Source of the DNA: Deltaproteobacteria bacterium
GTDB lineage: Bacteria; Myxococcota_A; Polyangia; JAAYKL01
Assembly: GCA_030595125.1 (NCBI GenBank)
Contig: JAUVDV010000048.1
Span: 1 to 43,078, forward strand
DNA length: 43,078 nt
Direction: 5' to 3'
Below the pieces are notes generated by a model. That model had not been told where the DNA came from. It saw nothing but the letters and a program-made list of their open reading frames with translations, and did no database searches. The position numbers were made by a program, and so were the translations under genes. Each line of letters begins with the position of its first letter. Position 1 is the first letter of the stretch. Shown piece by piece: positions 27,270 to 33,707 of this stretch.

Positions 27270-27370
27270 GCACTACACGCCAATGCGGAGCCGGCAATTA
27301 TCGGGCTTGAATGATCAATGAGTTTCACCGATCATGTGTCAACACTTTATAGACAACAGAGGTGGTTTCC

Positions 27371-30070
<2,700 letters not shown>

Positions 30071-31775: not shown

Positions 31776-32693
31776 ATGGCACATGTCAATTTTCAGAAAT
31801 CGTTTTTAAGATTCAAGATCGTTTACGATGGTTTCGATCTTTGCGGTAAAACAACCAATCTTGAAGAACTCCACAAGATGCTCGGGGGCAACGCGGAGTT
31901 CGTATCCCTTCAGACCGAGGGCGATCGCACCATATACTTCGACTACATTCCGTTGAATCTGGGCAAGCTCGGCAACATAGAAACGGTTTTCAGGATCTAC
32001 ACGGCTCCCGGGAAGGTTCGCGACAACAAGACCCGCAAGATGATGCTCCGGGACGTTGACGGTGTCGTGTTTGTGGCGGACTCCCGGAAAGAAGCGATGC
32101 CCAATAACGTGGAGAGTCTGTTTAACCTGGAAGAAAACCTGGTGCAAGAAGGCGGGGAGCTGTCAACTTTGCCCATGGTGATCCAGTACAACAAGCGCGA
32201 TCTCGACGACATCGCGAGCATTGAGCAGATGGAAAAGGATCTGAATCAGGCGGGCCGGCCATATTTCGCCGCGAGCGCGTTGAAGGGCGAGAACGTCAAG
32301 AAAACCCTCCTGGCCATCGCACAGACAGTGTACGAGGTGGCCACCGAGCGATATGGACTCGCTGGTCCCGTTGAGAGAGAGGTGGATGGCGAGGACAACT
32401 GGTCGAGCATTTCAATGGTGCCTCCTCCCCCGCCCGCCGAAAAGCTCTCGGGGACCCCGCAGCCGAGCGAACGGGTTGTGGACTCCTCGGACGAGCAAGT
32501 AAGCCTTCTCAAGTCCCAGTTCGGGGAGATCCGGGAGGAGATCGCCGAGATCGGGATCAAGATCGACGAACTTCGAGCGGACCTCTCCAGGAAGTTAATA
32601 CAAGAAGCCGACCAGTGCTTCTCTGACTACCTCGAGGATGTCGAAGAGACGAGCGCTCAAAACGAAGAAAAGAAACCCCCGGACGCCGGCTGA
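31776..32693 (+). CDS. MglA-family small GTPase with coiled-coil tail
   Basis: A 305-residue protein. Residues about 12-195 match MglA, the Ras-like polarity GTPase of myxobacteria: KIVYDGFDLCGKTTN (P-loop, G19 to T26), EGDRTIYFDY (Arg 51), YTAPGKV, VDGVVFVADS and QYNKRD (139-142). Two positions differ from active MglA. Residue 21 is Asp where MglA has Gly, equivalent to Ras Gly12. Residue 80 is Lys where MglA has the catalytic Gln. The Arg equivalent to MglA Arg53 is kept. A C-terminal extension of about 100 residues has a Pro-rich linker and a coiled coil (FGEIREEIAEIGIKIDELRADL). No mglB (roadblock) gene is beside it. The obg gene starts 3 bp after its stop. Confidence 0.85.
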   Translation: MAHVNFQKSFLRFKIVYDGFDLCGKTTNLEELHKMLGGNAEFVSLQTEGDRTIYFDYIPLNLGKLGNIETVFRIYTAPGKVRDNKTRKMMLRDVDGVVFVADSRKEAMPNNVESLFNLEENLVQEGGELSTLPMVIQYNKRDLDDIASIEQMEKDLNQAGRPYFAASALKGENVKKTLLAIAQTVYEVATERYGLAGPVEREVDGEDNWSSISMVPPPPPAEKLSGTPQPSERVVDSSDEQVSLLKSQFGEIREEIAEIGIKIDELRADLSRKLIQEADQCFSDYLEDVEETSAQNEEKKPPDAG

Positions 32694-32696
32694 CAA

Positions 32697-33707
32697 ATGC
32701 AATTCATAGACGAGATCACCGTGATCGTGAAAGCCGGAGACGGTGGCGATGGAGCGATCGCGTTCAGAAGGGAGAGGTTTCGCCCCAAGGGCGGTCCCTC
32801 GGGTGGAGACGGGGGAAAGGGTGGTGATATCATCCTTCGCGCCGATCCGAACCTGGGCACACTGATCGATCTGAAATACAAAAACCGACTGGAATCAAAA
32901 CGAGGTCAGAACGGCGGCGGCAAGGATCGTCACGGTCGGGGCTCCGAATCCCTCATCGTCAGGGTGCCTGTCGGAACCGCGGTCCATGACGCCGACACCG
33001 GCGAACTTATCGGTGATCTGGTGGAGGACGGGCAGGATCTCGTGGTAGCTGCCGGCGGCAAGGGCGGGCTGGGTAACATGCACTTCACCACCCCCTCCAA
33101 CCAGGCGCCCCGAAAGGCATTGCCCGGAGAACCCGGGGAGGTTCGAACTGTAAGGCTCGAACTCATGTTGCTGGCGGACGTGGGGCTGGTGGGAATGCCC
33201 AGCGTGGGCAAGTCGTCCCTGATTGCGCGTTTTTCCGCCGCCCGACCCAGGATTGCGGAGTACCCGTTCACCACGCTGGTTCCCAATCTCGGAGTGGTGG
33301 AGCTCGGGGAGGGGAGTTCGTTCGTGATGGCCGACATTCCGGGGCTCGTACGCGGAGCGTCCAGGGGCACCGGCCTGGGGTTCAGGTTCCTCAAGCACGT
33401 GCAACGCACGGCGATCCTGCTGCACATCCTGGCGGTCGATCCCGCCGGAGAAAACGATCTGCTCGACGATTTCGATGCGCTGGTCAATGAACTCCACGAA
33501 TTCAACCCCGAGATGGCAAAGAGACCCTCCCTCGTGGCCCTCAACAAATGCGATCTACAAGAGACCAGAGATGCGGAGACTCCCCTGCTCGATGCCCTGA
33601 AGGAACGCGGGCTCGAACTCCATCTGTGCTCCGCCGCAACCGGAGAGGGGCTCGGGGATCTTCGCGCCGCCATCGTGCGAAAGCTCAACGAAAGGGAAGA
33701 CGGGTAG
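32697..33707 (+). CDS. obg: Obg GTPase
   Basis: A 336-residue GTPase involved in ribosome assembly and stress control. It has the Gly-rich Obg fold (GGDGGKGGDII, then GKGGLGNMHF), followed by the G domain: VGMPSVGKSSL (G1), DIPGLVRGA (G3) and NKCD (G4). The short OCT domain of some Obg proteins is absent, as in E. coli-type lengths near 390 minus tail; 336 residues is the usual short form. The start ATG lies 3 bp after the MglA-like stop, so the two GTPases are translated from one message. Confidence 0.95.
   Translation: MQFIDEITVIVKAGDGGDGAIAFRRERFRPKGGPSGGDGGKGGDIILRADPNLGTLIDLKYKNRLESKRGQNGGGKDRHGRGSESLIVRVPVGTAVHDADTGELIGDLVEDGQDLVVAAGGKGGLGNMHFTTPSNQAPRKALPGEPGEVRTVRLELMLLADVGLVGMPSVGKSSLIARFSAARPRIAEYPFTTLVPNLGVVELGEGSSFVMADIPGLVRGASRGTGLGFRFLKHVQRTAILLHILAVDPAGENDLLDDFDALVNELHEFNPEMAKRPSLVALNKCDLQETRDAETPLLDALKERGLELHLCSAATGEGLGDLRAAIVRKLNEREDG

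Follow-up and report, generated by a model that had tools for sequence, protein, structure and literature searches.

An orphan MglA-family GTPase with substituted catalytic residues and a helical tail, upstream of obg

Our comparisons indicate that an MglA-family GTPase encoded upstream of obg has lost residues of its switch machinery within one genus, while the residues that grip phosphate, magnesium and guanine are unchanged there. The gene lies on a contig of 43,078 nucleotides from the deltaproteobacterial genome of an uncultured myxobacterium; this whole stretch was analyzed and is called the window. We consider it fairly probable from the sequences that the protein is a recently eroded, hydrolysis- and switch-deficient orphan paralogue of MglA, which is kept under purifying selection and would act through its tail as a nucleotide-bound scaffold. 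The Asp and Lys residues at the positions of Ras Gly12 and Gln61, to which the initial annotation had drawn attention, appear to be one outcome of an erosion of the switch across the lineage.

Results

The gene runs from an ATG to a TGA codon and is listed with its motifs and neighbors in Table 1. Residues 1–186 of the product match Myxococcus xanthus MglA in the PDB (phmmer, E = 1.3e-46). When its AlphaFold model is compared by Foldseek, MglA structures take ranks 1–14. The MglA-like GTPase annotated here is thus confirmed as a member of the family by both sequence and fold. The GTPase domain is predicted with confidence, the surroundings of switch I excepted. Group 1 MglA proteins have an Arg beside the G2 Thr, the intrinsic Arg finger, and a TVPGQ G3 motif (PMC4316618); the window protein retains this Arg, and its G3 motif reads TAPGK. 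It has the fold of the Group 1 proteins of M. xanthus and Thermus (PDB 6izw, 6h17 and 3t12), is about 45% identical to them in the GTPase domain, and has in common with them Arg53, NKRD and a switch II of the form T-x-x-G that lacks the usual Asp. It differs from them in that Gly21 and Gln82 are substituted, a C-terminal linker and helix are added and no mglB adjoins the gene; in the orthologues of the sister species, Thr54 or Pro80 is also gone.

Table 1. Features of the GTPase gene and its surroundings in the window (residue equivalences refer to M. xanthus MglA or Ras)
Feature	Position	Strand	Remarks
DUF885 protein	27362..30070	+	upstream; syntenic in G001, G002 and G006
Lipoprotein-like ORF, 537 aa	30092..31705	+	no Pfam family; upstream; syntenic in G001, G002 and G006; beside obg in G003
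MglA-family GTPase paralogue, 305 aa	31776..32693	+	eroded catalytic residues and helical tail
P-loop, GFDLCGKT	31830..31853	+	Asp21 = MglA Gly21 / Ras Gly12; Gly19, Gly24, Lys25 and Thr26 retained
Switch I, TEGDRTI	31914..31934	+	Arg51 = MglA Arg53 and Thr52 = MglA Thr54, both retained in the window copy
Switch II, TAPGKV	32001..32018	+	Lys80 = MglA Gln82 / Ras Gln61
Guanine-binding motif, NKRD	32190..32201	+	retained across the genus and nearest relatives
Proline-rich linker, residues ~201–236	32376..32483	+	AlphaFold; low confidence, poorly ordered
Predicted continuous C-terminal helix, residues 237–297 (61 residues)	32484..32666	+	AlphaFold
obg/cgtA	32697..33707	+	starts 3 bp (CAA) past the GTPase TGA

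The alignment upholds the two substitutions first noticed in the P-loop and switch II, as well as the persistence of the Arg53 equivalent and of NKRD. Such residues are rare at these places: of 125 other members of the MglA family, 113 have Gly at position 21 and the rest Ala, Ser or Pro, with a charged residue in none, and 123 have Gln at position 82. Hereafter, residues are numbered as in MglA unless stated otherwise.

The orthologues come from two sister species (G001 and G002; the window's genome is G000), a sister genus (G006) and a more distant genome (G003). Those of the sister species are 81–82% identical and, as in the window, lie directly 5' of obg; each of the three genus members has an intact frame and the same synteny. 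The G002 orthologue has Asp21, Gln82, Thr54Ile and Pro80Ser, and the G001 orthologue has His21, Lys82, Thr54Ile, Val83Ala and Arg89Leu. Written in the order G000/G002/G001, positions 21, 54, 79, 80, 82 and 89 read D/D/H, T/I/I, A/V/V, P/S/P, K/Q/K and R/R/L. Arg53 is retained in the three species, and Gly19, Gly24, Lys25, Thr26, Asn141, Lys142 and Asp144 are unchanged in all of them. The idea that Asp21 and Lys80 (window numbering) are fixed in a clade that keeps the tail and the obg linkage does not hold: G002 has Gln82 and G001 has His21, and together with the G006 orthologue they rule the pair out as a clade signature. A salt bridge between the two residues as a maintained unit is likewise not supported, since Asp21 stands with Gln in G002 and His21 with Lys in G001. 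Sequencing error is disfavored by the recovery of the gene, with synteny, in three separate genome bins.

The G006 orthologue is canonical at every substituted position and has a homologous tail, and the loss in the genus is therefore derived. In the G003 relative, Gln82 is retained, position 21 is Ala, and Thr and Asn replace Arg53 and Thr54; this protein sits on a long branch, which makes its exact placement less sure. The five tail-bearing proteins form one clade (support 100/99) of orphan MglA paralogues with a homologous C-terminal helix. A search of 317 genomes from the class gave no further clear orthologue, and the orthologue is missing from most of the bacterial family. A looser group of relatives, with canonical or Arg53-lacking members, occurs in G014, G194 and G139. 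Two of these genomes carry long tail-bearing relatives with frames of 692–762 aa (loci L199 in G139 and L195 in G194), and the G139 protein has Met at the Arg53 position.

In the genus, changes at conserved positions are not scattered over the protein. We tested 43 columns in which at least 93% of 123 homologues agree and G006 still has the consensus residue; 14 of them belong to the P-loop and switch regions, whose boundaries follow what is generally known of the fold. Genus-specific changes occur at eight columns, every one of which belongs to these regions (hypergeometric p = 2.1e-5; p = 7e-6 to 4e-5 at conservation thresholds of 0.85 to 0.95, and 0.0018 at 0.98). No such change was seen at the conserved fold or guanine-binding columns of this test. 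In the same genomes, the corresponding count of changed columns is 1 of 47 for canonical MglA, 1 of 47 for the paralogue on contig C66 and 7 of 48 for the more divergent C184 group. The dN/dS of the GTPase domain among the genus orthologues is 0.24–0.29, compared with 0.034–0.051 for canonical MglA of the same genomes, 0.15–0.18 for the C66 paralogue and roughly 0.10–0.13 for obg. By these values the gene is constrained yet fast-evolving, and by the column test its losses concentrate in the switch machinery; a dN/dS well below 1 indicates constraint without saying on which function. In the tree, the path from G006 measures 0.83–0.91, against 0.28–0.30 for canonical MglA in these genomes.

The added C-terminal tail had been described as a coiled coil. 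The model safely supports a long predicted helix (block-mean pLDDT about 88–94 over residues 237–297); since the heptad periodicity is only moderate, a coiled coil is likely rather than certain. The tail is homologous in the sister genera, where it shares an end motif of the D-x(n)-Y-[LI]-x-[DE] type.

The window contig has no Robl_LC7 domain, as expected from the earlier remark that no MglB-like roadblock gene lies nearby, and the GTPase is thus not part of a coupled MglA–MglB pair with mglB within four genes. The genome has two Robl_LC7 matches on other contigs (C186 and C67), and the MglB-like roadblock protein on C186 is encoded just upstream of a canonical mglA. Besides the window GTPase, this genome encodes that canonical MglA and two further paralogues. 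The C66 paralogue groups with a Myxococcus sequence in a separate clade and has a different C-terminal extension. SofG and other orphan MglA-family proteins are also not coupled to MglB (PMC4316618); they have orphan status in common with the window GTPase, and SofG is likened to it by description.

The start of obg 3 bp past the GTPase gene agrees with what had been reported for the window, and in both sister species the gap is 0 bp. The two genes are likely co-transcribed. In G006, a 223-aa ORF with no Pfam match lies between them (locus L121, 6091–6762, minus strand; receiver-like, as judged by eye only), and in G003 the GTPase gene is on another contig while the 537-aa neighbor is still 5' of obg. 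In both G006 and G003, the 537-aa gene is followed downstream by a related small ORF that is encoded on the opposite strand. Because the window has no room for this ORF, the tight spacing there may stem from gene loss. At 26 other obg loci, the flank of about 1.5 kb held no MglA-like gene directly upstream of obg. The linkage is direct in three genomes, interrupted in G006 and absent in G003, and a conserved GTPase–obg functional module is not supported by G006, G003 or the other 26 loci. No paper functionally linking MglA with Obg was found among titles and abstracts naming both. The proposed link to ribosome or growth control was drawn from this adjacency, which offers it little support.

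The 537-aa lipoprotein-like gene is found near obg in five family genomes (among them L121, 8590–10209, minus strand, and L178, 6407–8122, plus strand), and possible Cys, His and Asn catalytic residues can be picked out in its product by eye only. The DUF885 protein has a long Lys/Glu/Arg-rich low-complexity insertion mid-protein, which is unaligned in relatives, while its matching flanks are conserved.

Other substituted MglA-like proteins came to light in these comparisons. In two Myxococcota MAGs (L067, 6001–6585, plus strand; L083, 4704–5288, plus strand), an MglA encoded at dnaX-recR has Pro in place of Gly21 and Asp in place of Gln82, an independent case in which both the Gly12 and the Gln61 position of Ras are substituted; no mglB was seen between recR and mglA. 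MglA-like proteins of WOR-3/Stahlbacteria-type genomes (L047–L052, L059, L063 and L064) form one clade in which the intrinsic Arg finger is replaced by Gln (TELDQTLF).

Discussion

Based on these findings, we propose a mechanism for this lineage. GTP hydrolysis, and probably GTP/GDP switching too, would have been lost within one genus, while the fold, guanine-nucleotide binding and the tail would be retained under purifying selection. The nucleotide would probably be a structural cofactor that stays bound permanently, and the protein would be a constitutive scaffold that makes a functional contact or a dimer through its long C-terminal helix. Its activity could then be set by the amount of protein, without a GAP/GEF cycle, as in Rnd and RhoH. 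By sequence, the protein falls in the hydrolysis-deficient class of pseudo-GTPases, in which catalytic residues are lost and nucleotide-binding residues kept. Standing against the scaffold proposal, Ras-family proteins substituted at Gly12 or Gln61 can retain slow intrinsic hydrolysis, the intrinsic Arg finger is retained, and G002 keeps Gln82. We also considered that the genus may hold a pseudo-GTPase in transition, with species-specific losses, a nucleotide-bound scaffold role and the canonical sister-genus orthologue as the before-state; we regard this as somewhat short of an even chance.

By the precedent of other substituted GTPases, the proteins of all three species probably hydrolyze GTP very little. 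In M. xanthus MglA, the T54A and P80A proteins are made and stable and their function is abolished, G21V is impaired and motility is reduced, and Q82A and Q82R fail to accumulate (PMC3000849). Rnd and RhoH, in which position 12 is not Gly, are GTPase-deficient; their activity is set by level rather than by cycling, and switch II of RhoH is altered (PMC13236570). The likeness of these atypical eukaryotic Rho GTPases (Rnd1–3 and RhoH), which stand outside the MglA family, is one of functional analogy only, and they are established families, whereas the changes in the window's lineage are recent and species-specific. A natural Gly21 substitution in an MglA without MglB has already been published: Bdellovibrio bacteriovorus MglA (Bd3734) has Ser21 and no MglB, and is proposed to be permanently GTP-bound (PMC3983030). 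Like the window GTPase, it is an orphan with a natural change at Gly21; unlike it, only Gly21 is reported as substituted, the other motifs are conserved and the gene lies at a dnaX-recR locus, and the window's host, unlike B. bacteriovorus, has an MglB elsewhere in its genome.

The initial annotation had favored a slow or GTP-locked enzyme, and a constitutively GTP-bound slow GTPase that signals through its tail, possibly in ribosome or growth control through Obg, is the alternative that fares best, although we judge it unlikely. It fits the window copy, where Asp21 and Lys80 (window numbering) occur together with Arg51, Thr52 and NKRD; solved structures of NRAS Q61K and Q61R are GTP-bound, the Bdellovibrio orphan is a further parallel, and obg follows within 0–3 bp in all three genus members. 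The copies of the sister species fit it poorly. The pair is not fixed there, and in both G001 and G002 Ile replaces Thr54, the residue that senses the gamma-phosphate; this speaks against a GTP state as a conserved feature, as does the looser or absent obg linkage in G006 and G003 against the Obg connection. Thus the impaired-hydrolysis part of the earlier reading is consistent with the repeated, varied loss of catalytic and gamma-phosphate residues beside kept nucleotide-holding ones, whereas a GTP lock as a conserved trait is not. Since Thr54Ile is found in two species, the state common to all three would be one that does not switch rather than a GTP-locked one, and this would favor the nucleotide-bound scaffold.

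Less likely still is simple decay, in which the gene is heading to a pseudogene and the catalytic residues went first. Accelerated evolution from G006, a raised dN/dS and the lack of an orthologue in most of the bacterial family are what decay would give; three intact frames at 81–82% identity with a dN/dS this low disfavor a pseudogene, and the tail is conserved and the fold and guanine-binding columns are free of genus-specific change.

A GTPase that still switches by altered chemistry, for example one that cycles slowly by means of the retained Arg finger and has its own putative GAP or GEF, would accord with Arg53 in all three species and with Ser, Ala or Pro at position 21 in other, mostly otherwise canonical MglA relatives, but it is improbable, as a charged position 21 with loss of Thr54, Pro80 or Gln82 removes several needed elements, differently in each species.

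Hydrolysis-deficient small GTPases are mostly known from eukaryotes, with Rnd, RhoH and Rbj as examples, and in bacteria the Bdellovibrio MglA is the known hint of one. The lineage of the window GTPase offers, in closely related genomes, four natural proteins, one canonical and three differently eroded, which allow a comparison on the loss of switching that would otherwise call for designed mutants. Should the eroded forms prove to bind both nucleotide and a partner, they would show that an MglA scaffold is able to function in the absence of cycling.
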